Source of the DNA: a virus | IMG/VR virus record: IMGVR_UViG_3300042691_037827 | Span: 1-41,348 of that record | Length of the DNA stretch: 41,348 bases | Reading direction: 5' to 3' (one strand) | In this document: in pieces, positions 12,553-38,196 of the stretch | How positions within the stretch are numbered: position 1 is the stretch's first letter | Layout: every line of letters begins with the position of its first letter | The notes under the pieces: model-generated | Seen by the model: only the letters and a program-made list of their open reading frames with translations | What the model was told of the DNA's origin: nothing | The model's database searches: none | Position numbers and translations under genes: made by a program

Positions 12553-13503
12553 TCACGGGGTGATACCGCGCATGATCCCATGGACGCGGCGGTTGGGCAC
12601 ATGCAGCGCCATGCCCACGCTGACCATGTATTCCTCGTTATCGTTGCGGAGGCCCAGTTGCTTGGTTTCCACGTCGCGAATCATGAGAATCGCCGGGTCA
12701 TCGTTGACCAAGTCCAACCAAAGCAGTTCCGAGTTCGCCATAGTGCGAATCGGGGTGATGGGGATACCGTTGAACCCCATTCCGTTCCGCATCACTCCGA
12801 TGTCGAACGGTTGTCCGCTGACACTGGGAAGCTCACCCCGGTAGATGGAACCGGACCCGGCGGAGGGGCCCTGAATGTTCCCGTAGTTTTTCATCTGGTT
12901 CGTGTTGCCCAGAATGACGGACGGGTCCGCCCCTCTCGCCAGGGCAATCATGTTGCCGTAGAAGTCCTGCATGTCCGCCACGTCCAGGGTTCCGATGGAG
13001 CCCGTTTCCTGGGACGCCCAGAGGGTGATGCTCGCGGGGTCGATACCCGCGTAAACGTCCGCCGCATCGATGATGGACGAGAAGCCCTTGTCCTGGGCGG
13101 AACCACACAACGTGGTCTCGCACAGGTAAAACAGCGCCTTCAGGGCGTCCGCAAGCTCACCCTTCAGCAAGTCTTCGAAGGTCCCGCCCTTCGCAATCTG
13201 GTCGCGAAGGTGGCCCGTAATGGCCGCCACCGCTCGCGCGTACCAGGGCGAAAGCGACGCCTGGGCAAAGGTGCGCTTGCCGGGACTCGCCAGCCCCTGG
13301 TTCTCCACGAACAGTTCCGCGCTGGCGTTGCCGCTGTAGGTCAGATTCCACTTCCGGGGGGACGAACCGGCCCACTGGCGAACCCTCCCCTGGGAGCGCA
13401 TGAAGTCCAGGAAGTCCGTTCGACGGGCGGTCAGGTCCGTGGGTCCGCCTTCCTGGATATTCGGGCGAATGAGAGCGGACGAATCCGAAACGTTCAGAGT
13501 CAT
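12553..13503 (-). CDS. Major capsid protein
   Basis: The product is 316 residues from the ATG at 13503, directly after a coiled-coil scaffold gene. Length and mixed alpha/beta composition fit an HK97-fold coat protein: a flexible N-terminus, a charged helical region (about residues 85-130, the spine-helix zone), a Gly/Asp-rich central part, and a beta-rich C-terminal domain around residues 230-316. No maturation protease gene is recognised nearby, so the N-terminus may not be cleaved. A stable hairpin lies in the 5' leader. Assignment is by synteny (scaffold, capsid, small capsid protein) and size. Confidence 0.85.
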   Translation of the reverse strand: MTLNVSDSSALIRPNIQEGGPTDLTARRTDFLDFMRSQGRVRQWAGSSPRKWNLTYSGNASAELFVENQGLASPGKRTFAQASLSPWYARAVAAITGHLRDQIAKGGTFEDLLKGELADALKALFYLCETTLCGSAQDKGFSSIIDAADVYAGIDPASITLWASQETGSIGTLDVADMQDFYGNMIALARGADPSVILGNTNQMKNYGNIQGPSAGSGSIYRGELPSVSGQPFDIGVMRNGMGFNGIPITPIRTMANSELLWLDLVNDDPAILMIRDVETKQLGLRNDNEEYMVSVGMALHVPNRRVHGIMRGITP

Positions 13504-15657: not shown

Positions 15658-17256
15658 TTACCCTCCAAACCCCGGCCCGCCAGGGGGCCGTCCAGGGCCC
15701 GCGCCCCCCACCATGCCACTACCGGGCGGCCGGACCCCGGGACCGCCCGGAAGGCCGCCCCCTGTCGCGGGAGGGGCCAACTTCAGACGAATCTCGTCCA
15801 TCATCTTATTCAGTTCTTCATCCGACACGGACAGGGAGGCATTCAGGGCCTGACGAATGGCGGCCATGGCCCCGGCCGGGCCCAGGTCATCCTTCAGCGT
15901 TTGCAGCAACAGAATTGCTCGCGCAAGGTCTTCGCTGGCGTCCGGCAAAACGTACCGCTTCGGATAGTTCAGGGCGTAGGTGGCGGCCCGGCGGAGGATT
16001 GCGGCGGTCAAGTCCAGGCTCTGCCGTTCGTAGGCTTCCAGGTTCCCGGCGAACCTTTTGCATCGGCCCTCGAATCCCCTTGACTTCAACTGAATCGCAA
16101 GCCCGGACTGGGCTTCATTCGTGCCTTCCACGGACACTTCCAGGCCCGCCATGCGGTAGGCGGCCCCCATGAGGAACACCGCATGGTCCCGGAGTTCCCG
16201 GGTTTGCTCGGCGGAGGGTTGCACCCAGGAAGGGACGCCGGTGTCCGAGGGGTACCCCAGGGCGGTGTCCGGCCCCACTTCGACCTTGGTTTCCGGGTCC
16301 AGCGCCCCCGTGGTGGACTTCTGAGGAATGGCCAGGAACGGGAACGCGGTCTTTCGGTGGATGTCCCCCACGTTCGAAAGGGTGTTGTATACCTCTCGCG
16401 CGATGTCACAGGTGTCCGCCACCAGGGACACCCCCAGGGGCCAGCGCGAGGAAGTCACTTCACGGAAGAACGAGAACACCACCGGGACCTTGCCAGGGTG
16501 GGCCAGCGCCCCCCGGCCGGTGACTTCGCCCGCGGCCATGAGCTTGTCACGTTGCGCCAGATACCCGCTGGCAAGGTCCGCCGTGGTGGACATGCGGAAC
16601 CATTCCTTGGTGGTGTACCGGTACAGGTTCACCTGTTGCGTGGACGAATCCGCCATGTCACTGGTGTATGGTTGGTCCACGAAAGCGAACTCCGTAATGT
16701 TCCCCTCCGCATCCACGTCAACCCAGGCAATCGCCGGGGGGTGGACGATGGTGGCTCGGATGCCCACACCCATCGCCTGTTCCTCCGCCCGGTTGGCCGC
16801 GGGGTTCACGGCCGGGGTATCGAACAGGGTAGCGACGAACCCATAGACCGCGGTCCATCGGGCCACTTCCGCCATGTGCACGTCCCAGGTCCGGCCCTGT
16901 CCGTTCAGGTTCTTCATGAACCCTTCCAGGTCACCCAGGTCCCGGGCCGTGGCGGCCGTGGCCGCGTCCGCGTAGGCGTCCACGATGGGTGCTACAATGT
17001 TCAGGTAGGACGCCAGATTGTGGCGGGACTGGAAGGCGGACACGCGCTCCCCCGCGTGGGGCACAAGGTAGGAAGCCACCGTGGCCGCCAGGGTTTCGGT
17101 GATGACATCCGTTTCCCTATTGTGGGTGTACGCGTACACGGACGCCACCCCCATCGTGGGCGAACTCGGACTTCGGTAGTGGGGCCCTCCCCAGTAGGAA
17201 TCCTGGTAGAACGCGAAGCGCCCTCGGTGGGCATCGTAGGTTGCCGGGCTTGACAT
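15658..17256 (-). CDS. Portal protein
   Basis: The product is 532 residues from the ATG at 17256; a longer frame would overlap a plus-strand gene. It forms the dodecameric ring at one capsid vertex through which DNA is packed. Length, an early Tyr/Trp-rich N-terminus, a charged alpha/beta body and a long helical C-terminal part (about residues 400-480) fit the SPP1-type portal class. The last 40 residues are an unusual Gly/Pro-rich tail. It is followed directly by a gp10-like neck protein. A CATACT box 6 bases before the ATG could give a near-leaderless message, but no clear -35 box is present. Confidence 0.85.
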   Translation of the reverse strand: MSSPATYDAHRGRFAFYQDSYWGGPHYRSPSSPTMGVASVYAYTHNRETDVITETLAATVASYLVPHAGERVSAFQSRHNLASYLNIVAPIVDAYADAATAATARDLGDLEGFMKNLNGQGRTWDVHMAEVARWTAVYGFVATLFDTPAVNPAANRAEEQAMGVGIRATIVHPPAIAWVDVDAEGNITEFAFVDQPYTSDMADSSTQQVNLYRYTTKEWFRMSTTADLASGYLAQRDKLMAAGEVTGRGALAHPGKVPVVFSFFREVTSSRWPLGVSLVADTCDIAREVYNTLSNVGDIHRKTAFPFLAIPQKSTTGALDPETKVEVGPDTALGYPSDTGVPSWVQPSAEQTRELRDHAVFLMGAAYRMAGLEVSVEGTNEAQSGLAIQLKSRGFEGRCKRFAGNLEAYERQSLDLTAAILRRAATYALNYPKRYVLPDASEDLARAILLLQTLKDDLGPAGAMAAIRQALNASLSVSDEELNKMMDEIRLKLAPPATGGGLPGGPGVRPPGSGMVGGAGPGRPPGGPGFGG

Positions 17257-17281
17257 GCTCCCAGTATGTGACGGCCGTCCC

Positions 17282-17309
17282 TTGAAAACCACCCCCGACG
17301 TGGTAGGGT
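17282..17309 (+). promoter_or_regulatory. Candidate promoter for plus-strand cargo gene
   Basis: TTGAAA (17282-17287), a 16-bp spacer and TAGGGT (17304-17309) lie 5 bases before the ATG at 17315. The arrangement resembles the near-leaderless promoter at 18844-18872, though the spacer lacks the GTAA...TTAC dyad. Confidence 0.45.
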
Positions 17310-17314
17310 AGGGA

Positions 17315-17677
17315 ATGGCGCTCCCCCTTGCCACGGTCACCCTGGAGATTCCCGCCCCGGACGGCCCGCCCTTCCGATGGACCACGAAACCCCCTACGGA
17401 TGACCTGCCACCGGACGCCGTGGTGTTGGGCCAGGGCATGCTACACGGCGGCCATGCTGCGGTGACCATCGAACGGTGCTGGCCTGGGGTGTCCTACTGG
17501 TCCCTGAAGGTGGTATGGCAGGGGTGGGGGGTGGTGGTACAGGAAACCTTTTCGGTGAGCATCGCAGAGGGGGAACTGGCACGCGGGTTGCGTATGTTGT
17601 TCCAGCGCGTCCGCCAGTTCGGCGGAGTGCCCAGGGCGGACTCCGCGGCCGCTCCCCCCGATGCAACGTCATGGTAG
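17315..17677 (+). CDS. Plus-strand cargo gene within the structural operon, unknown function
   Basis: The product is 120 residues, encoded against the direction of all surrounding virion genes. The 3' end overlaps the convergent lectin-like gene by 9 bases, and no minus-strand gene of comparable quality covers the interval. The protein is Pro/Asp-rich at the start, then Trp/Val-rich with alternating strands (about residues 45-80), and ends in an Arg-rich helix and flexible tail. No domain is recognised. Independent promoter and reversed orientation suggest a moron gene expressed apart from the lytic late genes. Confidence 0.65.
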   Translation: MALPLATVTLEIPAPDGPPFRWTTKPPTDDLPPDAVVLGQGMLHGGHAAVTIERCWPGVSYWSLKVVWQGWGVVVQETFSVSIAEGELARGLRMLFQRVRQFGGVPRADSAAAPPDATSW

Positions 17678-18376: not shown

Positions 18377-18693
18377 GACGGGACCACGCGCTGAAAGTAG
18401 ACCTTGATACCGGCGGCCCTGGCGATGCACTTGACGGTCGCCGAACCCCTGAACGTCGGACTCGCCCCGGGGGCCACCAGGATGCCCGTAGCGGTGGCCG
18501 TGGTGGCGGGGAACGATGGGGTGGTGTTGTCCGTTCTGAGCATCGCTTCGCCCGTGCCCACCACGATGGCTTGCCACACCCCCGCATCCAGAACGATCGT
18601 CTGGACGGCGGCGGATGAACTGAAGTCCAGATACCCCAGGGTGGACGTGGCAGTCAGCGGGAGGAAGGCCGCGTTGGCAAGGTCAGAGTTCAT
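18373..18693 (-). CDS. Small beta-rich protein paired with the lectin-like gene
   Basis: The product is 106 residues from the ATG at 18693. Ala, Thr, Val and Ser dominate and there are few charges, suggesting a single beta domain. It ends by overlapping the lectin-like gene (ATGA), so the two are co-translated and may form one surface structure. Upstream on the minus strand, TTGACG and CATCCT lie 17 bp apart with the ATG 8 bases later, a weak near-leaderless promoter candidate. No family is recognised. Confidence 0.68.
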   Translation of the reverse strand: MNSDLANAAFLPLTATSTLGYLDFSSSAAVQTIVLDAGVWQAIVVGTGEAMLRTDNTTPSFPATTATATGILVAPGASPTFRGSATVKCIARAAGIKVYFQRVVPS

Positions 18694-18736: not shown

Positions 18737-18805
18737 CAATGTCACTGTAACTTTACAGTGTCATCGTACCTGTTACGATGTCAGTGTAACTTTGCAGTGG
18801 CACTG
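18737..18805. repeat. Pair of 30-bp dyads upstream of the zinc-protein cargo gene
   Basis: Two copies (18737-18766 and 18776-18805), 39 bp start to start, follow the ideal CGATGTCACTG-TAACTTTC-CAGTGACATCG with a few changes. They lie between the divergent starts of the minus-strand gene (18693) and the plus-strand gene (18879). Operator or insulator roles are possible. Confidence 0.9.
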
Positions 18806-18843: not shown

Positions 18844-18872
18844 TTGACCGTAGAGTAAACGTCCCTTACTAT
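18844..18872 (+). promoter_or_regulatory. Promoter with internal 15-bp dyad, near-leaderless
   Basis: TTGACC (18844-18849), 17 bp, TACTAT (18867-18872), then 6 bases to the ATG. The spacer end holds GTAAACGTCCCTTAC (18855-18869), the operator-like dyad shared with promoters at 35413, 36548 and 37163 at the same distance from the -10 box. Confidence 0.85.
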
Positions 18873-18878
18873 TAGGAC

Positions 18879-19223
18879 ATGAACAACGAAACGACGGTCA
18901 CCGCGAAGAACACCAACGGTCATGTATGCATGTTCTGCGCGGCCATGCCGGGCGAACCGTGCCAGAACGCGGCCGGGAAGGTCCTGAAGGTGGTTCACAA
19001 GGAACGCGCCCAGGCGGTGGAGGGGTGGGACAACATGGACAAGCCCGCCCTGGTGATTGCGGACCGTCGCGAGTGGTCGAATAAGCACGCGCAAACCGCA
19101 TGCCAGCGCATCCTGGCGGGGGACCTGGACGGAGCGAAGGTCAGCGCGGGATACGCCAAGGAAGGGGTGGACTACATCGCCCGCATCACGGCGGCCCTGG
19201 CGGCCAAGGGTTACAGCCTCTGA
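18879..19223 (+). CDS. Zinc-binding PGxPC-type phage protein (moron)
   Basis: The product is 114 residues from an ATG only 6 bases after a -10 box. Residues 17-40 carry C17-x2-C20, P-G-x-P-C28 and H40, the pattern of small phage zinc-binding domains of the C-x2-C-x2-x-PGxPC...H-x2-R type. The remainder is a charged helical domain with no known fold. It is transcribed against the surrounding late genes and bracketed by two dyad pairs, so it is an independently regulated cargo gene. The promoter belongs to the same dyad family as the repressor, lipoprotein and parB promoters, so expression in the repressed or early state is likely. Confidence 0.85.
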   Translation: MNNETTVTAKNTNGHVCMFCAAMPGEPCQNAAGKVLKVVHKERAQAVEGWDNMDKPALVIADRREWSNKHAQTACQRILAGDLDGAKVSAGYAKEGVDYIARITAALAAKGYSL

Positions 19224-19293
19224 CCGAGGGGACACGGGGGGGGACTGAACGGCCGCGCAGTCAGGCAACCCCCGTGCCAACCCGCGCGGACTA

Positions 19294-19362
19294 CAGTGAG
19301 CCTGTAACTTTCCAGTGACATCGTAACAGGTTCGATGTCCCTGTAACTTTCCAGTGACATCG
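19294..19362. repeat. Pair of 30-bp dyads downstream of the zinc-protein cargo gene
   Basis: Units at 19294-19323 and 19333-19362 repeat the upstream pair with the same 39-bp period and the same TAACTTT loop orientation. They lie between convergent gene ends (19223 and 19369), so bidirectional termination is an alternative to an operator role. Confidence 0.9.
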
Positions 19363-19368
19363 GAACCG

Positions 19369-20769
19369 CTAGGGATTCGTGGTCCCCATCACGAGGTAAC
19401 GGAGGGCGTCCGCCGGGTCGTCCCCCACCTTGACCGGGTCTTCCAGGACAACCCCGTTGCGGTCCTTTTTCCTGGCGTACGATTCCAGGCACGCGATGGT
19501 ATCCGTACAGGCATCGGAGATATACAGCCCGGGGTGCTGGGTTCCCCCCACCAGGGTGGCCGCATGCCCCCCGTGGGTGAGGCGGGACCGGTAGTCCCGG
19601 GGGGCGAGGATGGTCTGTGTAACGTTCGCCCGTTCAACGGCCCATTCGAACAGGGCGGCCACGCGGCGGATGCCCTCCGCCACGTCATTGTCCGCGGGGT
19701 AGACCACGGTGGCCCGGGCCCGTCGCAGGCCCTTGTGGAGCGCCTCGATTGCCTGGGGTTGGCTCGGATCGCAGAACCACCGGTCAACCTTCCACTTGGC
19801 GGCTAGGGCCTTGCCGATGGTCACCCATCCACCTGGGGTGTCCGTGATGGTCCGTTCCTGGTGGACTTCCTCCGCCAGCACATAGATATTGCCCAGGGCA
19901 TCCTCCCCCGCCACCAGCATGACGCCGGGGTGTGCCCACCCCCAGTCCACCCCCGCGTTCACCCTCCGCCACACACGGCCCACCAGGGAGGCGGCCGGGA
20001 CCACATGGACGGACCGGGAGAACATGCTCCACACCTGTCCCTCCATCGCTCCGAACTCAGCGTCAAGGTATTGCTTCGCCCATGCCTTGGACGCCCCGGG
20101 ACGGTTCCTCAACTTCGGTTCGTAGTCCGGGGGTAGGTACGGATTGTCCTGGGTGCGTGCTCGGATCACCGCGTGGGTGCGGGTGCGCCAATGGTGCACC
20201 GTCCCCGTGCGACCCACCGAGGGGTCCGGGGCCGTACCGAATTCCTCCGCCGTCCAGTGCTTCATGGACTGGGGAGGGCCGGTAAGGATCGTCACGCGCT
20301 GGCGTCCCGGGTATCCACGGCGCAAGCGCCCCTGAAGAACGTTGAATGCCTCCCGGTTCTTCTCGCGGGGGGCTTCATCATACACAAGCCATGCCGCGTT
20401 CACACCTTCATTGGACCAGGGGTTGCTGGTGGAGCGTAGCAGAATCTTACTACTCTCACCTGTAGGTGTTCTCACCACCAGTTCGTCCCCTTTCTTCGGG
20501 TCCCGGTGGAGCGTCCACCAGTCCCGGGGAATCCACTGGCACCACTCGGAGAACCACGCTTGCATAAGCAGGGGGTACGTTGGAGCGGCCACGATGCCCA
20601 CATACCCGGGGTGCGTGATGGTGGCGAGCGAGAATGCCTCCATGACCCCCACCGTGGTCTTCCCGACCCCATACCCCGCGCAGAACCAGCGTTGACTGGC
20701 GGGGTCTTCATGGAATCGCCGCTGGACGGCATGCGGCTTGTAGGTGATGGTGTTGAGGGGCTCGGTCAT
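19369..20769 (-). CDS. terL: Terminase large subunit
   Basis: The product is the 466-residue packaging motor and headful or cos nuclease. ATPase: Walker A GYGVGKTT at residues 32-39, Walker B LVYDEA with D131-E132, and a coupling-type motif near residue 163 (TGPP). Nuclease: acidic residues in AGVDWGW (D275), CDPSQP (D334) and GDDPADALRY (near D454) form the expected RNase H-like triad. Length is normal for the family. It starts with ATG at 20769 overlapping the preceding stop as ATGA. It is the last gene before the dyad-flanked cargo gene. Confidence 0.95.
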   Translation of the reverse strand: MTEPLNTITYKPHAVQRRFHEDPASQRWFCAGYGVGKTTVGVMEAFSLATITHPGYVGIVAAPTYPLLMQAWFSEWCQWIPRDWWTLHRDPKKGDELVVRTPTGESSKILLRSTSNPWSNEGVNAAWLVYDEAPREKNREAFNVLQGRLRRGYPGRQRVTILTGPPQSMKHWTAEEFGTAPDPSVGRTGTVHHWRTRTHAVIRARTQDNPYLPPDYEPKLRNRPGASKAWAKQYLDAEFGAMEGQVWSMFSRSVHVVPAASLVGRVWRRVNAGVDWGWAHPGVMLVAGEDALGNIYVLAEEVHQERTITDTPGGWVTIGKALAAKWKVDRWFCDPSQPQAIEALHKGLRRARATVVYPADNDVAEGIRRVAALFEWAVERANVTQTILAPRDYRSRLTHGGHAATLVGGTQHPGLYISDACTDTIACLESYARKKDRNGVVLEDPVKVGDDPADALRYLVMGTTNP

Positions 20770-21104
20770 CTGGGCAGTATGAACCCCAGGGGGCGCTTGT
20801 AAACCGGGGCGTCCGGGTCCGAGTGTTCATGCTCGGAGTCTTCCCCGTGGTCTGGGTCATCGTATTCCGGGGTAACCGTGTCCACCACGTCCCCGCACAC
20901 GTCCACCATGCCCCCGTCCGTCCCGTCCAGCACGGACAGGGCGTCCCTGGTGACCGCCAGGGATTCGTTCAGGGCCGCAAGTTCTGCGCGCTTGGTCGCG
21001 TTCCCCAGGTCCAGGGCGCGGGCCGCGATGCGGTCCACCAGGGCCGCCATGGCCACAAGCACCTTGCCCCGGGCCACCGCGCGGGCCCTCGGTCGCCGGG
21101 CCAC
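20766..21104 (-). CDS. Small protein between membrane protein and large terminase
   Basis: The product is 112 residues from a GTG at 21104 that overlaps the previous stop as TAGTG; longer frames overlap the real upstream genes. The N-terminus is very Arg-rich, then a long Ala/Leu/Glu helix (about residues 18-60), then a strongly acidic Asp/Glu/His stretch (80-100). It overlaps terL by ATGA. Basic and acidic segments flanking a helix suggest a DNA- or protein-binding packaging accessory, but no family is recognised. Confidence 0.65.
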   Translation of the reverse strand: MARRPRARAVARGKVLVAMAALVDRIAARALDLGNATKRAELAALNESLAVTRDALSVLDGTDGGMVDVCGDVVDTVTPEYDDPDHGEDSEHEHSDPDAPVYKRPLGFILPR

Positions 21105-21367
21105 TAGCCCACCCTCCGGCGAACGTGGTACGCCCACGCAATCACGGCCTTGGCCGCCGTCCAGGCCCCCACTCTCCAGAGCAGACTCCCCGTCGACACG
21201 GCCACCTGGACGGCCGCCAGGGCCGCCATGCGGAACGCGCCCCCCGCCAGGGCGGCGGCCGCGAACAACATGCAGGTCAGCGCAAGCCGTGCGCACGCCA
21301 GGGCAAACGCCCCGTGACGGCTCGTTTCGATGACAGGGGCGAGATAGAAGCGTGCCATGGGATTCAT
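21104..21367 (-). CDS. Small membrane protein in the terminase cluster
   Basis: The product is 87 residues from the ATG at 21367 (ATGA overlap with the preceding gene). Two or three hydrophobic Ala/Leu/Val-rich segments are seen at about residues 20-45 and 48-78, ending in a short Arg-rich tail, consistent with an inner-membrane protein with a positive cytoplasmic end. A holin or pinholin role is possible from topology, but the gene is far from the other lysis genes at 38452-40443, so the function is open. Confidence 0.65.
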   Translation of the reverse strand: MNPMARFYLAPVIETSRHGAFALACARLALTCMLFAAAALAGGAFRMAALAAVQVAVSTGSLLWRVGAWTAAKAVIAWAYHVRRRVG

Positions 21368-21843
21368 CCTTGGTCAGCGTGCGGGGGTTCATCGTCCGCC
21401 CGGGGGGTGGTGAGGATGAACGGTAGCGCAATCGCGGTACCCCGTCCAGCGTTCTGGGCGGCCGCGGACTGGTCCCCCTTGTGATTCCCGTTGACCTTCG
21501 ACAGTTGAACCACGGCGGCCAACAGGTCAGGGATGGAGTGGCCCGGGTCCTGCAATCGCAACTTCAGTGCCACCGTGGCCACCATCTGGGCGTCCAGTGC
21601 ACGTTCGTTCAGGTCTTCGCGCAGTTTCACCAGGGCATCCTGGCACATGGTGCGGAACGCCGGGTCACGGTTACACTCACCTACAATGTTGTAGATGGTC
21701 TTACGGTCCACCCCCCAGATGCGCGATGTCATCACCGCCCCGCTGGTGACGTAGTCCGCCCACACGCGGGCCCGGGTGGGCAGGTCCTGAATCGCCCGGC
21801 GTTCCTTGCGCACCTTCCTGGGCGTGTCGTCCCCGGCGTCCAT
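21364..21843 (-). CDS. terS: Probable terminase small subunit
   Basis: The product is 159 residues from the ATG at 21843 (a GTG at 21855 is an alternative). The N-terminal part has an HTH-like stretch around residues 40-60 (SGAVMTSRIWGVDRKTIYNI) preceded by a charged segment, followed by helices that could mediate ring formation and a flexible C-terminus. This layout fits small terminases, which recognise the packaging site and load the large subunit. It lies two small genes upstream of terL. The assignment is inferred from architecture and position. Confidence 0.65.
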   Translation of the reverse strand: MDAGDDTPRKVRKERRAIQDLPTRARVWADYVTSGAVMTSRIWGVDRKTIYNIVGECNRDPAFRTMCQDALVKLREDLNERALDAQMVATVALKLRLQDPGHSIPDLLAAVVQLSKVNGNHKGDQSAAAQNAGRGTAIALPFILTTPRADDEPPHADQG

Positions 21844-21845
21844 GG

Positions 21846-22163
21846 CTACTTCCACCCCCGCTTGCGACCCATCCTCTGGGCCGCTTCCAGGTCACCCAGG
21901 GACAGGCACACCAGCACGGGCGAACCCGGACCCGGGCAGTAGCGCACGGCTCGCCCACGGGCGAACTGTTCGCGTGCATACCTCTGTTCCAGGCTTTCCA
22001 GGGTCCGCATGTGCGCGGTGATGACCGGAAGGTCGTCCGCACACGTCGGGGTGCCTGGGTTGGAGTGGGGAAAGTCCGCCAGGGTCTCTTCATCCAGGGC
22101 GGGGAGCGGCAACTGGTCCATGGTCGCAACGTACACCCCGGTCATGCCCAGGGCAAGCCTCAC
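21846..22163 (-). CDS. Unknown protein of the packaging cluster
   Basis: The product is 105 residues from the GTG at 22163, which overlaps the upstream stop as GTGA. It is soluble, with an acidic N-terminal part and an Arg/Lys-rich C-terminus. A helical segment lies around residues 50-68. No motif is recognised. Translational coupling on both sides places it in the same operon as the zinc/HTH protein and the probable small terminase. Confidence 0.65.
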   Translation of the reverse strand: MRLALGMTGVYVATMDQLPLPALDEETLADFPHSNPGTPTCADDLPVITAHMRTLESLEQRYAREQFARGRAVRYCPGPGSPVLVCLSLGDLEAAQRMGRKRGWK

Positions 22164-22543
22164 TCAGCACGCAAACTTTGCTGGTTTCGTAGAACCAACA
22201 GGACTTTTTCTAGCGCTTCCGGGCCCTTTGCCCTTGCGTTCACCAGTCGTTTGTGCACGGCCTGTCGCGAGATACCCAGCGCGCACGCAATCGCCGGGAT
22301 GTCAATACCCGCCTCGCGCGTCCAGTGCGGGCCCTTCGCTCCCTTCCTCACCACCCTCCATCCGGGTTGATAGGTAGGATCATGTGGGGGCGGGGTCGGG
22401 TCGACCGCCTTGCAGGCCACGCACACAGGCACATGCACCCCGTGCGAATCCACCACCCGGGACGTAGTGGTCCGGTCGCAGTAGGCACACTTCGCGGTCA
22501 ACATAGCCCGGTGAATCTTCGTAGAGTGGCACTTTGTCTTCAT
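22160..22543 (-). CDS. Zinc-ribbon plus HTH DNA-binding protein
   Basis: The product is 127 residues from the ATG at 22543; a TTG at 22570 is possible but has no support. C19-x2-C22 and C41-x2-C44 form a zinc ribbon or knuckle pair. Residues 82-103 form a recognisable HTH with the A-L-G-I-S-R-Q-A-V-H-K-R turn. It is the first leftward gene next to control region B and diverges from the replication operon. It is a good candidate for the protein that binds the duplicated operators. A TAGACT box ends 8 bases before the ATG, so the message may be nearly leaderless. Confidence 0.8.
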   Translation of the reverse strand: MKTKCHSTKIHRAMLTAKCAYCDRTTTSRVVDSHGVHVPVCVACKAVDPTPPPHDPTYQPGWRVVRKGAKGPHWTREAGIDIPAIACALGISRQAVHKRLVNARAKGPEALEKVLLVLRNQQSLRAE

Positions 22544-22592
22544 CGGAGGGGAGTCTAATGGTTCAGTCAACCCAGGTCAACGGGATTCGACT

Positions 22593-22879
22593 GTGCACCC
22601 CGTGCACGGGTGTGCACCCCTGCGGTTTCCGGGGGTGCACGGGTATTCTCCAGTGATGTCCAACGGTTGGCGGCCCGTGCACCCCGTGCATACCCTGGCC
22701 CCTGGTCCCCCATATTCTTCCGTACTGTGACCATATATCGTCATGACCATATATGGTCACTGTATAGCTGAAAGTTTCTTAGAGTATAGAGAGCAAGGTA
22801 TGCACAGTAAGGAATCTCTAGGGAAAAAGCTGACAGAGTGTGTGCACCCCCGGGGTGCACGGGTATGCACGGGGTGCAC
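22593..22879 (+). promoter_or_regulatory. Control region B (inverted copy of 14901-15187)
   Basis: This is the second copy of the 287-bp region, facing right toward the replication operon. GTGCAC starts at 22593, 22602, 22612, 22635, 22677, 22842, 22855 and 22874, and again at 22949 just before the primase start. A TATAGA box lies at 22785-22790 without a good -35 box; the transcribed leader beyond it is almost identical to copy A. A 19-bp palindrome GTGCACCCC-C-GGGGTGCAC spans 22842-22860. A later TATCGT box (22941-22946) could give a short leader for the primase. The whole gap 22544-22959 is accounted for by these elements. Confidence 0.87.
22727..22760. repeat. Nested 34-bp palindrome, copy B
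   Basis: GACCATATATCGTC (22729-22742) and the perfect GACCATATATGGTC (22745-22758), 16 bp apart, flanked by GTGAC and GTCAC. Apart from one C/C mismatch pair the entire 34 bp reads as an inverted repeat. Candidate operator, ParB site or origin element. Confidence 0.87.
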
Positions 22880-22959
22880 AGTGCGTGTGTTTCATTCGGT
22901 CAACCCCGCCCCTCTGGTGGCGGCCGGGTCCCCCGTGCTGTATCGTGGGTGCACACAAC

Positions 22960-31623: not shown

Positions 31624-31719
31624 GTGTCCCCGGTCGCACAATCCGCCCTGACCCTGACCCTGGCCCTGGCCCTGTTCCTGGCCGCGTTGCTGGTGGCCCT
31701 AGACCCTCCGCCCCCGTGA
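31624..31719 (+). CDS. Micro membrane protein 1 (31 residues)
   Basis: GTG at 31624 encodes MSPVAQSALTL... with one hydrophobic Leu/Ala helix (about residues 8-26) and a Pro-rich end. It is too short for routine annotation but fills the gap between two genes and overlaps the next micro frame as GTGA. Function unknown. Confidence 0.5.
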   Translation: MSPVAQSALTLTLALALFLAALLVALDPPPP

Positions 31720-31841
31720 CGGCCGCCTTGTTCCAGGCGGCCGCCCTGGGGGCGGTCCTGTTTCTGTTCCTGTACACTCTCAACCTGAAAAGAGACCCAA
31801 GTCATGACCTGGATTCAGACCGCGACGCGAGAGAAGTTTGA
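31716..31841 (+). CDS. Micro membrane protein 2 (41 residues)
   Basis: A GTG at 31716 overlaps the previous stop (GTGA). The product has one hydrophobic helix (about residues 8-22, LGAVLFLFLYTL) and a charged Asp/Arg-rich tail. Its last 38 bases overlap the HD gene in another frame. The pair of adjacent single-pass micro proteins may act together. No family is known. Confidence 0.5.
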   Translation: MTAALFQAAALGAVLFLFLYTLNLKRDPSHDLDSDRDAREV

Positions 31842-32478
31842 CCTGTTGCACCCCGACCCGGCGGCCGTGGACCCCCAGGTGGTGGCCCACTCCCTGGCCC
31901 GAATCAACCGGTTCACCGGACACACCCACACGGGACACCCGGACGGTCTGGGGTACACGGTGGCCCAACACTGCGTTCTGGCTTCCCAGGCAATCCGGGA
32001 CTTGGTCCCGGCGGACCTGAAGGGGACTCGGTATGAAGACACCGTGGCCCTGGAAGCCCTGGTCCACGATGCGGCGGAAGCGTATACTGGGGACATGTCC
32101 GCCCCTATGAAGCGTGCCCTTCGCGCGGTGACCCATTCCCCGGCCGGGTGGGGCTCGGACTTCGACCGTATCGAGTTCGAAGTGTGGACGGCGGTGGCCA
32201 AGGCGTTCCGAGTCCCGGTGCATGCGAACCCCCTGGTCAAGTTGGTGGACCTTCGCATGCTGGCCACGGAAGCCCGGACCTTCATGTCCCCCACGCACCC
32301 GGATTGGACCAGTCCGGTGGAGCCGTTCGCCTGGGACATCGCAGAAGTCTGGACCCCCATCCAGGCGGAACGCGCATGGCTCGCAATGTACGATCGTCTG
32401 ACCGGCCGCAAGTGGAGCGTCACCCTGGTGGCCCAGGTCCAGTTGGCCCTTCGATTCGAGGGGGAGGGCGGCCGATGA
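31804..32478 (+). CDS. HD-domain phosphohydrolase, YfbR-like 5'-nucleotidase type
   Basis: The product is 224 residues with a ribosome site AAGAGA. HD-family metal ligands: H56 in YTVAQHC, H88-D89 in ALVHDAAEAYTGD, and a later aspartate in KLVDLRM (about D149). The RFTGHT opening and the AEAY-GD motif are typical of YfbR/YGK1-like enzymes, which remove phosphate from dNMPs. In phages such enzymes adjust dNTP pools or free modified-base precursors. It overlaps the polymerase start by ATGA. Confidence 0.85.
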   Translation: MTWIQTATREKFDLLHPDPAAVDPQVVAHSLARINRFTGHTHTGHPDGLGYTVAQHCVLASQAIRDLVPADLKGTRYEDTVALEALVHDAAEAYTGDMSAPMKRALRAVTHSPAGWGSDFDRIEFEVWTAVAKAFRVPVHANPLVKLVDLRMLATEARTFMSPTHPDWTSPVEPFAWDIAEVWTPIQAERAWLAMYDRLTGRKWSVTLVAQVQLALRFEGEGGR

Positions 32479-34454
32479 CTACCTTGTTCGCGTTCGACCT
32501 GGAAACATACTTGATTGGAGCGTCCGTCACGGCACCCCCCATGGTGTGCCTGACCTATGCCCACTGTGACCCCGCCCAGGTCACCGCGGCGGACGTGGCG
32601 GCCGTGTGCGCCCAGGTCCGGGCCGGGGACATCATCGGACAGGACCTGTTCAAAGGGGCCGTGGGGTGTATCCAGTTCGGTCTTCGGGATGCGGACACCG
32701 GACTGGACATGCTGGAACAGGCCCTGTTGGACGATGATACCACGGTGGTGGGCCACAATGTCCCGTTTGACCTTTGGGTCGCGTCCGAGGAACGCGCAGG
32801 CATCGGGTACCTGACGGTCAAGGCGCTGGACGCGGGCCGCATCCAGGACACCCAAGTCAGGGACCAGATGATTGACATTGCCTTGGGACAGTTCAGGTCC
32901 CGGGAAGTGGAAGACCCGGAGACTGGAGAAGTCAAGTTCGTGTCCGCGGGGTACCACCTGACCGACCTTACGGACCGGCGACTGGGATTCAAACTGGACA
33001 AGGGTGAGGATTCCTGGAGACTCCGATACGCGGAACTGGCCGCCACCCCTGTCCAGGACTGGCCCCTGGACGCCGTCCGGTATGCGGTCCTGGACGCCCT
33101 GTCCACCCTCGCTTGCGTGTTGTCCCAGCGCGAACAGTGGGACCCCATCCCGGACGAGATTCGCCAGACCCGGGCCGCCTGGGCCCTGGCGGCCGTTGCC
33201 GGGCGGGGACTGTGCGTGGACCCCGCGGCGGTCGAACGCTTGAACGGCGTTATCATGTCGGATGTCCTGGCCGCCCGGGAAGTGCTGACCGCCCAGGGGG
33301 TCTACCGCGCGGACGGGACCAAGGATGCGAAGGGCCTTCAGGACCGCGTCCGAACGGCGTTTGAAGCCCGGGGACTCACCCCTCCCCAGACCGCCACGGG
33401 CGAAGTGTCCACGGCTCGCCAGACCCTACTGGACGCCCAGGACCCGGTGTTGAAGACACTGGCGGACGTTGGCGCGAAGGAACGTCTGTTGACCGGGTTC
33501 GTCCCGGTGCTCCGCCGTGGGTATTCATCGCCGGTTGTGTGCCGCTACCACACCCTGGTGGAGACTGGGCGCACGTCATGCGTGGACCCGAACATTCAGC
33601 AGTTGCCCCGGTACCCCGGGGTCAGGGACGCCTTCATCCCCCGCCCCGGGTTCTACTTTTGTAGCGTGGACTACGATTCCCTGGAACTCCACACGTTGGC
33701 CCAGGTGTGCCTGGACATCGTGGGATGGAGCACCATGGCGGACAAGTGGATTGCGGACCCCACCTGGGACCCACACGCGGAGTTCGCGGCGGAGTTCCTG
33801 GGGGTCTCTTACTCGGACTTCAAGGCCCGCCTGAAGTCCCCGGACCCCGCGGTCAAGGCGGACGCGAAGTTGGCTCGCCAGCGGGCCAAGGCGGCCAACT
33901 TCGGTTTCCCGGGCGGCCTGGGGGCGCTGAAGTTCCAAGCGTACGCCAGGACTACCTACCAACTGGACCTGGACCTGTCCGACTGCGCGGCCCTTCAGCG
34001 GGCTTGGAAGCGCAAGTGGCCCGAAGTGGTGGAGTTCCAGGCCTGGGTGTCCGGTCAGTTGGACCCCATGACCGGAACGGCCACCTTCCCTCTGGTCCAG
34101 ACCGGGTTCGTCAGGGGGGATTGCAGGTACACCCAGGGGTGCAACACCGAGTTTCAGGGGTTGGCCGCCGCCGGGGCTAAAGAGGCACTCTGGAGAGTGG
34201 GCCGGGACGGGGCCGCCCACGGGGTGTTCCCGGTGGCGTTCTTGCATGATGAGATTCTGGCGGAAGTACCCATTGCGTCCGCCCACGAAAGCGCGTATTG
34301 GTTGGCGGACACGATGGTGGACGCCATGGCCAGTGTGGTCCCGAACGTCCCCATCACCGCTTCCCCCGCCCTCATGACCCGATGGTACAAGGGGGCGGAA
34401 CCAACACACGATGACCAGGGGAAGTTGGTTCCCTGGCATCCGCCCACAACCTGA
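32475..34454 (+). CDS. Family A DNA polymerase with 3'-5' exonuclease
   Basis: The product is 659 residues from the ATG at 32475. Exonuclease: Exo I FDLET (D8, E10), Exo II GHNVPFDLW (N95, D99), Exo III with Y and D in RYAVLDALS (about 210). Polymerase: motif A SVDYDSLEL (D399), motif B ARQRAKAANFGFPGG, and motif C FLHDEIL (H591, D592, E593). It lacks a 5'-3' exonuclease domain, like many phage replicative PolA proteins. It works with the PrimPol-helicase and the other replication proteins of the operon. Confidence 0.95.
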   Translation: MTTLFAFDLETYLIGASVTAPPMVCLTYAHCDPAQVTAADVAAVCAQVRAGDIIGQDLFKGAVGCIQFGLRDADTGLDMLEQALLDDDTTVVGHNVPFDLWVASEERAGIGYLTVKALDAGRIQDTQVRDQMIDIALGQFRSREVEDPETGEVKFVSAGYHLTDLTDRRLGFKLDKGEDSWRLRYAELAATPVQDWPLDAVRYAVLDALSTLACVLSQREQWDPIPDEIRQTRAAWALAAVAGRGLCVDPAAVERLNGVIMSDVLAAREVLTAQGVYRADGTKDAKGLQDRVRTAFEARGLTPPQTATGEVSTARQTLLDAQDPVLKTLADVGAKERLLTGFVPVLRRGYSSPVVCRYHTLVETGRTSCVDPNIQQLPRYPGVRDAFIPRPGFYFCSVDYDSLELHTLAQVCLDIVGWSTMADKWIADPTWDPHAEFAAEFLGVSYSDFKARLKSPDPAVKADAKLARQRAKAANFGFPGGLGALKFQAYARTTYQLDLDLSDCAALQRAWKRKWPEVVEFQAWVSGQLDPMTGTATFPLVQTGFVRGDCRYTQGCNTEFQGLAAAGAKEALWRVGRDGAAHGVFPVAFLHDEILAEVPIASAHESAYWLADTMVDAMASVVPNVPITASPALMTRWYKGAEPTHDDQGKLVPWHPPTT

Positions 34455-34467
34455 GAGGATACCCACC

Positions 34468-34767
34468 ATGTCAGTCAAGTTCCCCGTCAAACCGAACAAG
34501 CGCACCATCGGCAACCTGGATGACACGGCCAAGGCCCTGTCCGTGTTCCGGGACACCAAGGCCCTGGCGGAAGCTCTGGGGGTCCAGTACCCGGCGGCCG
34601 CTGACCGCCTGAAGGTGCTGAAGGACTCCGGCCGGTACATCGTGGAGGAACAACAGGGGGAGCGCACCGGCAAGCGTGGGGCCCGCCCGACCCTCTACCG
34701 CGTGACCCTCCGGCCGGAGTTCGCGGCCCCCGTCGCCCCCGCCCCCGCCACCCCGGACGCGGGTTGA
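34468..34767 (+). CDS. Winged-helix-like small DNA-binding protein
   Basis: The product is 99 residues from the ATG at 34468, preceded by an AGAGGA site. Residues 32-65 resemble a winged HTH: ALAEALGVQ, then RLKVLKDSG, then a basic turn and LYRVT as the wing. An Ala/Pro tail follows. It lies between polymerase and resolvase genes, so a regulatory or recombination accessory role is possible. Confidence 0.65.
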   Translation: MSVKFPVKPNKRTIGNLDDTAKALSVFRDTKALAEALGVQYPAAADRLKVLKDSGRYIVEEQQGERTGKRGARPTLYRVTLRPEFAAPVAPAPATPDAG

Positions 34768-34769
34768 CC

Positions 34770-35384
34770 ATGGGGCCCGCCCGGTTCGCCACGGGGGATG
34801 TCATCCTGGGGGTAGACCCCGGGGTGGAATCCCTGGGGTGGGGGGCCACCATCGTGGCCCCGGACGGTAAGTTGTATCACAAGGCCCACGGGTGCGAGAC
34901 TACCCAGGCCACCCAGACGATGCCGGACCGGGTGGACGCCCAGGCCCGGGGGTTGGCCGCCCTGGTAGAGCGGTTCCGCCCCTCGGTCATCGCGGTGGAA
35001 GCCTGGGTCCCGTACCGGGGCGGAAGCCGGGGGGCGGGCGAAAACACCATGCGTGTGTGCGGAGTGGTGCGGGCCCTGGGCGTCTTCCACGGCATCCCCG
35101 TTGTTGAGTACACCGCCCAGGCGGTCAAGGGCCTGTTGCTTGGGTCCCGCAACGCTGAGAAGGCGGACGTTCAACGGGCCGTCCAGGCATACTTCGCGCT
35201 GACCAAGCTACCCCGCCCGAACCATGCGGCGGACGCCCTGGCGTGCGCGGTGGCCCACTTCACGGCCCGGGCCCCCTCCGGGGCCGTGGTGTCCAAGTCC
35301 GCCCACCTGAAGTCCGCCACGAAGGGCGGCCGCCCCTGGAAGGGGGCCGCCGTGACCCTGGACGAACTCCGGGCCGCCCGATAG
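34770..35384 (+). CDS. RuvC-like Holliday junction resolvase
   Basis: The product is 204 residues from the ATG at 34770; a TTG at 34764 that overlaps the previous stop is an alternative. RNase H-fold catalytic acids: D16 in GVDPG, E77 in AVEAW, and D155 in NHAADALACA with H152. The middle region TAQAVKG is also typical of RuvC. The enzyme should resolve branched intermediates before packaging. The last 45 residues are a basic, Ala/Lys-rich extension. The gene ends the replication cluster, followed by the first dyad promoter of the maintenance cluster. Confidence 0.9.
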   Translation: MGPARFATGDVILGVDPGVESLGWGATIVAPDGKLYHKAHGCETTQATQTMPDRVDAQARGLAALVERFRPSVIAVEAWVPYRGGSRGAGENTMRVCGVVRALGVFHGIPVVEYTAQAVKGLLLGSRNAEKADVQRAVQAYFALTKLPRPNHAADALACAVAHFTARAPSGAVVSKSAHLKSATKGGRPWKGAAVTLDELRAAR

Positions 35385-35412
35385 CGGACACACAAGTCCG
35401 GTCGATTGTTGC

Positions 35413-35441
35413 TTGACGGGTCCGTAAGTATCCCTTACTCT
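35413..35441 (+). promoter_or_regulatory. Promoter with internal dyad, repressor operon
   Basis: TTGACG (35413-35418), 17 bp, TACTCT (35436-35441), ATG 10 bases later. The spacer holds GTAAGTATCCCTTAC (35424-35438), a perfect GTAAG/CTTAC dyad. It drives the three genes ending with the HTH repressor, which suggests autoregulation. Confidence 0.85.
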
Positions 35442-35451
35442 ACCCGAACCG

Positions 35452-35658
35452 ATGACCGACCGAGCGAACGAACTGGTGGCGGAACTGGAAGCCCTCGCGG
35501 GCCCTGCGAAGTCCGCCGCCCATGCGCGCAAGCGTGCGCGTTTGGCCGCCTATGTGGCGGCCAAGTCCGAAGCCGGGAACCCCCCGCCCCCCGTCCAGGT
35601 CCCCCTGGGGTGGCGTGCGGTTGCATCGGGACTCTGGGACCGCCTGAAAGGAACGTGA
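35452..35658 (+). CDS. Small Ala/Arg-rich helical protein
   Basis: The product is 68 residues from an ATG at 35452, the first codon of a message with a very short leader. One charged Ala/Arg/Lys helix (about residues 5-42) is followed by a Pro-rich hinge and a short hydrophobic-basic end. It is the first gene of the dyad-controlled repressor operon. No family is recognised. Confidence 0.65.
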   Translation: MTDRANELVAELEALAGPAKSAAHARKRARLAAYVAAKSEAGNPPPPVQVPLGWRAVASGLWDRLKGT

Positions 35659-35659
35659 T

Positions 35660-36193
35660 ATGTTGACGAACCGGGAAAAAGCGACGGCCCTCTGGATTGA
35701 CCTGTTGCTGGACAACCGAGTGGCCCATGGGGCCCTGTTGGTCCAATTGTGCCTGGACCTGGGGGTGGTGTGGGACATGGAAGTGGTCCGCCAGGACTTC
35801 CTGGTTTGGGAAGCCCGTGGATGGATCACCAGGGGCGAACGGCGGCCCGTGCCCTTCCAGAAGGACCTGGGGGCCCTTCACCCAGACGGCCCCTGGCATT
35901 ATGACTGGACGGCCCCACCCTTGAATTCCAGGGCAAACCTGGACGTGCGCGCGTTCCTCGGACACAAGGACGTTTGGACGTTCTTGGCCGCGTCCAGGAA
36001 CACCCCGAAGTCCGGCCAGTTCACCGTCCTGGCCGCCCTGATTCACTTCGACCGGACGGCGGGGGACGTACTCCGCCAGATGAACAAGGCGGCCCCGGAA
36101 GACCGGGACGCGGCCATGGTGGACTACCTGTCCAAACGCGCCCTGGAAGACCAAGCCCAGGGCCGGGGCGGCCGGAAGGGTGGTGGCAAGTGA
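35660..36193 (+). CDS. Unknown protein of the repressor operon
   Basis: The product is 177 residues, one base after the previous stop. An N-terminal helical domain with many Leu, Val and Trp residues (LWIDLLL, LLVQLCLDLG) looks like a winged-helix-style core, though no clear motif can be named. The C-terminus is Gly/Arg/Lys-rich. Overlap with the HTH gene as GTGA places it in the same operon. It might act with the repressor in lysogenic control. Confidence 0.65.
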   Translation: MLTNREKATALWIDLLLDNRVAHGALLVQLCLDLGVVWDMEVVRQDFLVWEARGWITRGERRPVPFQKDLGALHPDGPWHYDWTAPPLNSRANLDVRAFLGHKDVWTFLAASRNTPKSGQFTVLAALIHFDRTAGDVLRQMNKAAPEDRDAAMVDYLSKRALEDQAQGRGGRKGGGK

Positions 36194-36516
36194 GCGCGCA
36201 CCCCTTCGCCCAGGCCGGGGCCGCCCTTCGGGACTGGATGACCACCCAGGGCCTGACCCACTCTCAACTGGCCCAATGGGCCGGGGTGTCTCGAGCGGCC
36301 GTCACCATGTGGTGTTCCGGGGCGGCCCGCCCTGGTCCCCCCATCACCCTTGCCCTGGGATGGATAGGGGCGGTCAACGCGGGGGCGTGGCTGACCGACA
36401 AGGAACGCGAAGTGGCCGCAACCTTTCACGAAAAAGCGGCGGAAGTGGGCGTCCGTTGCCCCTGGTCGGGGGCGGACCCTAAGTCCCTGGTGTCCTACAT
36501 CCGCACACAAAAGTGA
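36190..36516 (+). CDS. XRE/Cro-CI type HTH repressor
   Basis: The product is 108 residues from a GTG overlapping the previous stop. HTH at about residues 22-48: L-T-H-S-Q-L-A-Q-W-A-G-V-S-R-A-A-V-T-M-W, the classic CI/Cro layout with the recognition helix S-R-A-A-V-T-M-W. The remainder is a compact helical domain. It lies in an operon whose promoter carries the 15-bp dyad found at all four members of the regulon, so it is the natural candidate to bind that dyad. A Cro-like role is also possible. Confidence 0.85.
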   Translation: MSAHPFAQAGAALRDWMTTQGLTHSQLAQWAGVSRAAVTMWCSGAARPGPPITLALGWIGAVNAGAWLTDKEREVAATFHEKAAEVGVRCPWSGADPKSLVSYIRTQK

Positions 36517-36547
36517 AAGCGGACGCGGGGGACCAGTGAAAAAGTCC

Positions 36548-36576
36548 TGGACAGGGGCGTAAGCATCCCTTACCTT
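36548..36576 (+). promoter_or_regulatory. Promoter with internal dyad, lipoprotein operon
   Basis: TGGACA (36548-36553), 17 bp, TACCTT (36571-36576), GTG start 7 bases later. The dyad GTAAGCATCCCTTAC (36559-36573) is at the same spacing as in the other three promoters. The mRNA is predicted to be leaderless. Confidence 0.82.
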
Positions 36577-36583
36577 CCGGGGT

Positions 36584-36778
36584 GTGAAGAACGCAACGCA
36601 AGTCTGGGCCGCGGAAGTTCTGGAAGTCCTGGCGGACCGTTCCGGGGACATTCGATGGACAAAGGTGTCCCTGGATGACCTGTTGCGCTGGACCCACCCG
36701 GACTACACCGCCCAGGAAGTGGCGGACGAATTCGAAGCCCAGGGTGTTGAGTTGCACCACGTTTCGACCAACCTTTGA
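36584..36778 (+). CDS. Small acidic protein, leaderless start
   Basis: The product is 64 residues from GTG at 36584, 7 bases after the -10 box. The sequence is acidic, with a helical N-terminus and a W-T-x-V-S-L-D-D-L-L-R-W core that could be a small HTH-like or protein-binding helix bundle. It is co-transcribed with the lipoprotein gene. No family is recognised. The start choice follows from the promoter geometry. Confidence 0.6.
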   Translation: MKNATQVWAAEVLEVLADRSGDIRWTKVSLDDLLRWTHPDYTAQEVADEFEAQGVELHHVSTNL

Positions 36779-36792
36779 CCGGAGTCCCCACC

Positions 36793-37122
36793 ATGAACCT
36801 GTCCCCTCTCGCTCGAGTGTTCATCGTCCTGGCCACCGCCGCCGCCGCCCTCGCGGGTTGCGGGGCGTCCGTCGCCCCCCAGGGGGCCACCCAGTGCGTC
36901 CCAGACCCCGTCATGGCGGCCGCCTACTGCGAAGCCCAGGCGGCCCGCATTGGCCGCCTGGGGGCCTGGGACGGGTCGAAGTGCGCGGTGGCCCCGGCCG
37001 GGGGTGGCATCGCGGAAGACGCCCTGGCGTTGGCCCAGTTCCGGGCCCGATGGCCGGACGCGTCCGGTTGCTATCGGGCCCCCGTGGATACCGGGGTGGT
37101 GGACTCGGTCTTCACCCGCTGA
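36793..37122 (+). CDS. Lipoprotein, possible superinfection-exclusion factor
   Basis: The product is 109 residues from the ATG at 36793, with a GGAG site; a TTG at 36775 is only a frame extension. A signal peptide with hydrophobic core (about 9-19) ends in the lipobox L-A-G-C with C23. The mature part has further cysteines (C35, C46, C64, C93) that may form disulfides. Residues 44-87 (AYCEAQAAR...GSKC...FRARW) match residues 156-201 of the lysis-cluster protein at 39583-40443. Expression from a dyad promoter suggests production in the repressed prophage, where exclusion lipoproteins typically act. Confidence 0.8.
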   Translation: MNLSPLARVFIVLATAAAALAGCGASVAPQGATQCVPDPVMAAAYCEAQAARIGRLGAWDGSKCAVAPAGGGIAEDALALAQFRARWPDASGCYRAPVDTGVVDSVFTR

Positions 37123-37162
37123 CCGACTGTCCCACATGTAACCGGCAAAGTTTCGAAAAGTG

Positions 37163-37191
37163 TTGACCGGATAGTAAAGAACCCTTACAAC
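37163..37191 (+). promoter_or_regulatory. Promoter with internal dyad, parB gene
   Basis: TTGACC (37163-37168), 17 bp, TACAAC (37186-37191), with GTAAAGAACCCTTAC (37174-37188). Unlike the others it has a 45-base leader with a GGAG ribosome site before the ATG at 37237. Confidence 0.82.
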
Positions 37192-37236: not shown

Positions 37237-38196
37237 ATGACCACCACGAAGACCGCCCCTGTTCGCGCCCCCAACGGAAAGACCTTTGCGGCCCCGACCC
37301 TGACCGCGTTCGCCATGGACCCGGACGAACTGGTCATCATCGGACTGGACACCCAGGACAAGGCGGGGGAACACCCCCTGTATGACGAACGTATCCACTT
37401 GCCGGTCAATGAAGCCCTGGTCCAGTCCATCATGGCCCACGGCTTCAAGCGCACCCTTCCGGTGCGCAAGGAAGGCACCCAGGCCGTTCTGGTGGACGGC
37501 CGCCAGGGCGTCCGCGCGGCCCGCGAGGCAAACAAGCGGCTTCGCGCGGCCGGACTGGAAACCGTGAGTATTCCGGTGTTGCCGGAACGCGGGTTGCAGG
37601 ATGCCAACGCAATGGGACTCATGATCCTGGCGAACGAACTTCGCACGGACGATGACACCATGACTCGAGCGACCAAGGCGGCCCGCTACCTGGGGACCGG
37701 GAAGACCCCGGAACAGGTGGCCCTGGCGTTCGGCGTGGCAGAGTCCACGGTGTCCATGTGGATGGACCTTTTGGAACTTCACCCGGATGTCCAGGTCATG
37801 GTCAAGGCCGGTCAGTTGGGGGCCAAGGCCGCTTCCAAGTTGGCCAAGTTGGACCGCGCGGGCCAGTTGCGGACCGCCCTGGAACTGGTGGCGGCCGGTC
37901 GGGCCACCACCGAAGGGGCGGCCGCGGCCGTCCGTGCGGCCAAGGCCCAGGCGGCCCCCCAGGGGGCGGAGTCCAGCGAGACGGCCCCGGCCAAGGCGGT
38001 CAAGGCGGCCCCCGCGTTCCCCCGTCCGGCCCTGTCGGACATCCGGGCGGTCCTGAAGGCCGTGGCCAAGGGCAACGGCAACCTCTCGCTGGAAGTGCGG
38101 TTGGCCCTGGCCTGGGTGGCCGGGGAAGGTCCGGCGGCGGACGTGGAAGGGTTGCAGGCCATCCTGGACGCCCTGGTGGGCAAGTCCAATGCGTGA
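37237..38196 (+). CDS. ParB-like partition / nuclease-domain protein
   Basis: The product is 319 residues. The ParB N-terminal domain spans about residues 50-105: a G-F-K-R-T-L-P-V strand and D-G-R-Q-G-V-R-A-A-R-E-A-N, equivalent to the G-x-R-R-x-x-A-A nucleotide motif. A KorB-like HTH follows at about 157-180 (EQVALAFGVAESTVSMW), then a helical linker, an Ala-rich stretch and a C-terminal helical domain. No ParA gene is seen. The protein could segregate a plasmid prophage, silence genes, or bind the palindromes at 15020 and 22727. It is the last major gene of the dyad-controlled cluster. Confidence 0.85.
   Translation: MTTTKTAPVRAPNGKTFAAPTLTAFAMDPDELVIIGLDTQDKAGEHPLYDERIHLPVNEALVQSIMAHGFKRTLPVRKEGTQAVLVDGRQGVRAAREANKRLRAAGLETVSIPVLPERGLQDANAMGLMILANELRTDDDTMTRATKAARYLGTGKTPEQVALAFGVAESTVSMWMDLLELHPDVQVMVKAGQLGAKAASKLAKLDRAGQLRTALELVAAGRATTEGAAAAVRAAKAQAAPQGAESSETAPAKAVKAAPAFPRPALSDIRAVLKAVAKGNGNLSLEVRLALAWVAGEGPAADVEGLQAILDALVGKSNA

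Follow-up and report, generated by a model that had tools for sequence, protein, structure and literature searches.

In phage phiC31, conserved inverted repeats (CIRs), which are symmetric and lie at several phage promoters, are bound by the c repressor. In the mycobacteriophages L5 and Bxb1, one phage protein recognizes many dispersed operators and stoperators, the consensus of which differs between phages (PMC6550527); the stoperators are asymmetric, mostly not associated with promoters, and block elongation. In the RK2 KorB/KorA system, a ParB-family protein represses scattered promoters from operators (OB) that lie outside the spacer, upstream of the promoters; its best understood mode of silencing depends on KorA (PMC11790492). 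In autoregulated repressors and control proteins of the XRE family (C.AhdI, SinR, HigA-type), a small HTH protein is paired with a dyad in the promoter of its own gene.

The locus described herein resembles the CIRs by description, in that symmetric repeats at several promoters would be bound by one repressor, with a different sequence. As in L5/Bxb1, its sites are dispersed in the genome and the consensus differs in different phages. Unlike the stoperators, which are numerous and asymmetric and lie mostly outside promoters, the four sites found here are symmetric and all located in promoters, and no integrase or parA gene was found. In contrast to OB, the dyad lies in the spacer and overlaps the -10 box, and the ParB-like protein of this phage matches KorB in both profile and fold. 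Like the small XRE regulators, the locus has a small HTH protein and a dyad in its promoter; unlike them, it has three further units with the same site, and the fold match of the HTH protein is weak.

The DNA analysed (hereafter the window) is a virus record of 41,348 bp with 67% G+C, which is probably a complete genome because it carries a 69-bp direct terminal repeat. The plus strand carries a replication module (primase-polymerase, exonuclease, helicase, dNMP kinase, phosphatase, PolA and RuvC), downstream of which the HTH, lipoprotein and parB units are located. The relevant features are as follows.

12553-13503, minus strand: head protein, a structural gene
15658-17469, minus strand: portal, a structural gene
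18844-18872, plus strand: promoter 1 (from sequence), TTGACC-17-TACTAT, dyad GTAAACGTCCCTTAC at 18855-18869
18879-19223, plus strand: zinc-finger protein gene, 114 aa (PF24623 Phage_zn_bind_8, Pfam E 1.6e-5)
19369-20769, minus strand: TerL, a structural gene
22160-22543, minus strand: zinc-cysteine and HTH protein gene, upstream of the late genes (weak sigma-region-4/HTH match)
35413-35441, plus strand: promoter 2 (from sequence), TTGACG-17-TACTCT, dyad GTAAGTATCCCTTAC at 35424-35438
35452-35658, plus strand: HTH operon gene 1, 68 aa, ATG 10 nt after the -10 box (no family match)
35660-36193, plus strand: HTH operon gene 2, 177 aa (no family match)
36190-36516, plus strand: XRE-like HTH protein, 108 aa (PF13560 HTH_31, E 2.8e-7)
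36548-36576, plus strand: promoter 3 (from sequence), TGGACA-17-TACCTT, dyad GTAAGCATCCCTTAC at 36559-36573
36584-36778, plus strand: protein of 64 aa, function unknown, GTG start 7 nt downstream of the -10 box
36793-37122, plus strand: putative lipoprotein, 109 aa, LAGC lipobox (signal and lipobox from sequence; LPAM_1 match weak and below cut-off)
37163-37191, plus strand: promoter 4 (from sequence), TTGACC-17-TACAAC with a weak -10 box, dyad GTAAAGAACCCTTAC at 37174-37188
37237-38196, plus strand: ParB-like protein, 319 aa (phrog_1033, E 2.7e-30)

The dyad GTAA(A/G)N3CCCTTAC (GTAARNNNCCCTTAC) had exactly four exact matches in the 41,348-bp genome, all on the plus strand, while its reversed control pattern had none and no further GTAA-N5..9-TTAC was present in the whole genome besides these four sites. 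In 300 order-2 Markov simulations, an exact dyad never arose. When simulated promoters were clustered by at least 9 of 17 spacer bases in common, a cluster of four was never reached in the 300 simulations (the maximum was three, once), and at 11 of 17 bases the biggest cluster was two, also once. With up to three mismatches, 31 sites were observed against 27.4 expected by chance, and thus the exact sites have no halo of weaker ones. The distance between the dyad and the TTGAC-type -35 box is identical in all four cases, so that the same symmetric site recurs at several phage promoters in a fixed geometry. Full 5-bp arms (GTAAG-N5-CTTAC) were found only at 35424 and 36559, and the other two sites, at 18855 and 37174, have 4-bp arms (GTAA...TTAC).

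These results bear out the observation of an earlier note on this DNA that four promoters share a 15-bp dyad with GTAA 12 bases before the -10 box. The dyad had been placed inside the spacer, which holds for spacer positions 6-17 but not for its last three bases, which are the first three (TAC) of the -10 box. Likewise, the layout of a -35 box, a 17-bp spacer and a TAnnnn box was recovered at all four promoters, with the qualification that the fourth -10 box (TACAAC) is a poor match. The half-site centres are 10 bp apart, i.e., one helical turn, and since the -10 box is overlapped and the promoters are otherwise sigma-70-like, the arrangement is that of a repressor and its operator. A dimer bound to the dyad would thus cover the spacer together with the upstream portion of the -10 box and would block the host RNA polymerase.

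The constant distance from both hexamers, always on the same strand, could also mean that the conserved sequence is a promoter element read by a modified RNA polymerase or an activator, its symmetry being incidental. However, a resemblance to the sigma-70 consensus is already present in the hexamers and the 17-bp spacer, and in a second phage (see below) a different palindrome, displaced by about 5 bp, takes the place of the element, which makes this explanation very improbable. Activation of the MerR type was rejected, as MerR-activated promoters have spacers of 19-20 bp as against 17 bp here.

A fifth convincing promoter, at 22580 on the minus strand (TTGACC-17-TAGACT), drives the 22160-22543 gene without a leader and lacks the dyad, which suggests that promoters of this phage can do without the dyad. 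That gene's own dyad-free promoter and the weak sigma-region-4/HTH match of its product are compatible with a reader of the dyad other than the regulators encoded near the sites, such as this zinc/HTH protein or a host regulator. The gene is, however, 13 kb away from the site cluster, and a scan of 84,980 species in the genome collection, which required the promoter geometry, gave only 22 single, chance-level matches, none repeated within a contig, which argues against a host regulon; we therefore consider such a reader quite unlikely. Near this promoter, two head-to-tail 16-bp near-palindromes TGACCATATATSGTCA occupy 22728-22759 in the A+T-rich stretch that separates the late operon from the primase gene, and repeated GTGCACCCCGTGCA elements, possible replication-origin iterons or operators, extend over 22590-22880 across the same intergenic region.

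The distances from the -10 box to the start codon at promoters 1-4 were 6, 10, 7 and 45 nt. Accordingly, a leader is probably absent from two or three of the four mRNAs, including that of the zinc-finger gene (ATG 6 nt after the -10 box), which lies on the strand opposite to the surrounding late genes, and probably that of the 64-aa gene, while parB carries a leader of 45 nt. In Actinobacteria and Deinococcus-Thermus, leaderless genes are marked by a TANNNT box some 12 bp ahead of the start (PMC3160421). The layout fits hosts like these. Two near-palindromes, CACTGTAACTTTACAGTG and CAGTGTAACTTTGCAGTG, were also seen 39 bp apart at 18737-18805, between the plus-strand zinc gene and a divergent late ORF starting at 18693, and are possibly a second operator type.

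A parallel case was found in phage L033/G022 (G022), a 25,320-bp fragment that has only the replication/ParB module in common with the window phage (33% identity for PolA, 30% for ParB). It carries seven copies of the dyad AGYGYCATGRCACT or a close variant, six of which occupy spacer positions 1-14 of TTGAC-N17-TANNNT promoters while the seventh stands alone, and this spacer is common to all six promoter-like sequences of the contig. Five of the six promoters precede leaderless genes with the ATG exactly 6 nt after the -10 box; parB follows the sixth, its ATG 18 nt after the -10 box. The targets include an HTH_17 protein, and a small HTH_23/Fis-like protein is encoded one gene downstream of one dyad promoter. 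In IMG/VR this dyad was found in G022 itself only. The dyad-in-promoter architecture recurs, its specificity altered, in two phages that are only distantly related. Because the dyad differs while the promoter frame is constant, a repressor with its own specificity is favoured over a promoter element, and a changed repressor specificity would account for the difference between the two phages.

Among 33 other PolA- or ParB-bearing records screened for TTGAC-N18-TANNNT, no obvious set of at least three promoters with a common dyad was found, and the ParB promoters of Stenotrophomonas and Klebsiella phages showed no matching dyad. Other promoter repeats were noted: at L015:108-1650, six tandem cassettes have near-identical promoters (TTGACAACCCCCCGAGCGGTCT-TATATT/TAAGTT) followed by ATGAAGAC; L013 has a looser promoter set; and L058 has two leaderless promoters (G036:11054- and 15970+) with a common spacer like AGTGAACTAAGTGCACT, which may represent a third instance of the architecture.

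As to the protein that binds the dyad, the HTH gene has sites on either side, three of the four falling within 1.8 kb around it, and the gene itself is inside an operon behind a dyad promoter. The 108-aa product has an HTH_31/HTH_3 domain; its single-sequence model was poor (pLDDT 61), with small XRE proteins as fold neighbours at weak E-values. Because of the clustering of sites around its gene, this protein is plausibly the likeliest binder. Against this candidate, no homologue of it was found, its model is poor, and the 25,320-bp G022 fragment gave no HTH_31 match, though it has other small HTH genes. Our main reading, to which we assign a probability of about 0.52, is that a single dimeric DNA-binding protein of the phage uses the dyad as its operator. 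This protein, most likely the XRE-like product of 36190-36516, would co-repress parB, the zinc-finger gene and the HTH and lipoprotein operons, in that case including its own operon.

The ParB-like protein, which has a ParB fold with a DNA-binding domain and resembles Spo0J and Noc, and to a lesser degree KorB, in profile and fold comparisons, could instead be the binder, either as a ParA-less, KorB/Noc-like operator-binding regulator of its own gene and the three other units, or with the dyads serving as parS-like loading sites. The best argument for it is that parB is in both regulons: homologous parB genes are themselves under a dyad in both phages with a promoter-dyad cluster. ParB is also the only regulator seen in common between the window phage and G022, and no ParA was found in the genome. 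Against this, eight other phage records with the same ParB family had no recurrent promoter dyad, so that a dyad accompanied ParB in the window and G022 only; KorB operators are placed 4-10 bp or more ahead of promoters rather than in the spacer (PMC11790492); and the dyad, which spans 15 bp around an odd centre in the window, spans 14 bp in G022, unlike one conserved parS. We thus regard ParB as an unlikely binder, and doubt somewhat more that a ParA-less ParB-family phage protein is a spacer-binding transcription repressor whose circuit arose in two or more phage lineages, with dyad specificities that differ between them.

No close DNA relatives were present in the phage collection, and ParB, PolA and HTH as single queries returned no relatives. 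The dyad-plus-promoter pattern was found in five IMG/VR contigs, with one match each and the same sequence in four of the five. Three IMG/VR contigs have the structural module in common with the window (TerL 49-55%), and 16 more records have a TerL at about 50%; the identity was 49-57% for the TerL relatives L095-L097 and L181-L196. The scan of related phages for the dyad that had been proposed came out negative for these TerL relatives as far as they were searchable, many being fragments, and neither the HTH protein nor ParB was found in those searched.

The description of the four units as prophage-maintenance functions was not supported by this analysis. Searches with PF00589, PF00239 and PF13614 across the 41,348 bp found no integrase, resolvase or ParA in this probably complete genome, leaving ParB alone, and the closest structural relatives lack the HTH protein, ParB and the dyad where searchable. 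Two TerL peptide patterns found no prophage of the window lineage in genomes. Lysogeny probably exists in the lineage, since one of the TerL relatives carries a tyrosine integrase (G003:C1:32319-32783), a gene that the window phage lacks. As for the one autoregulated repressor regulon suggested by the earlier note, a shared operator of the repressor type is upheld by the exact, unique and symmetric sites and the parallel in G022; the regulon itself is likely, and autoregulation and the HTH protein as the regulator are plausible.

The system is of a known kind, that of a phage repressor with dispersed promoter operators, and provides a predicted compact regulon, made up of one regulator with its operator and four targets, for an uncultured phage lineage in which no control circuit has been characterised. 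The pair of phages with the same layout and a different dyad makes operator specificity and the role of an orphan phage ParB directly testable.
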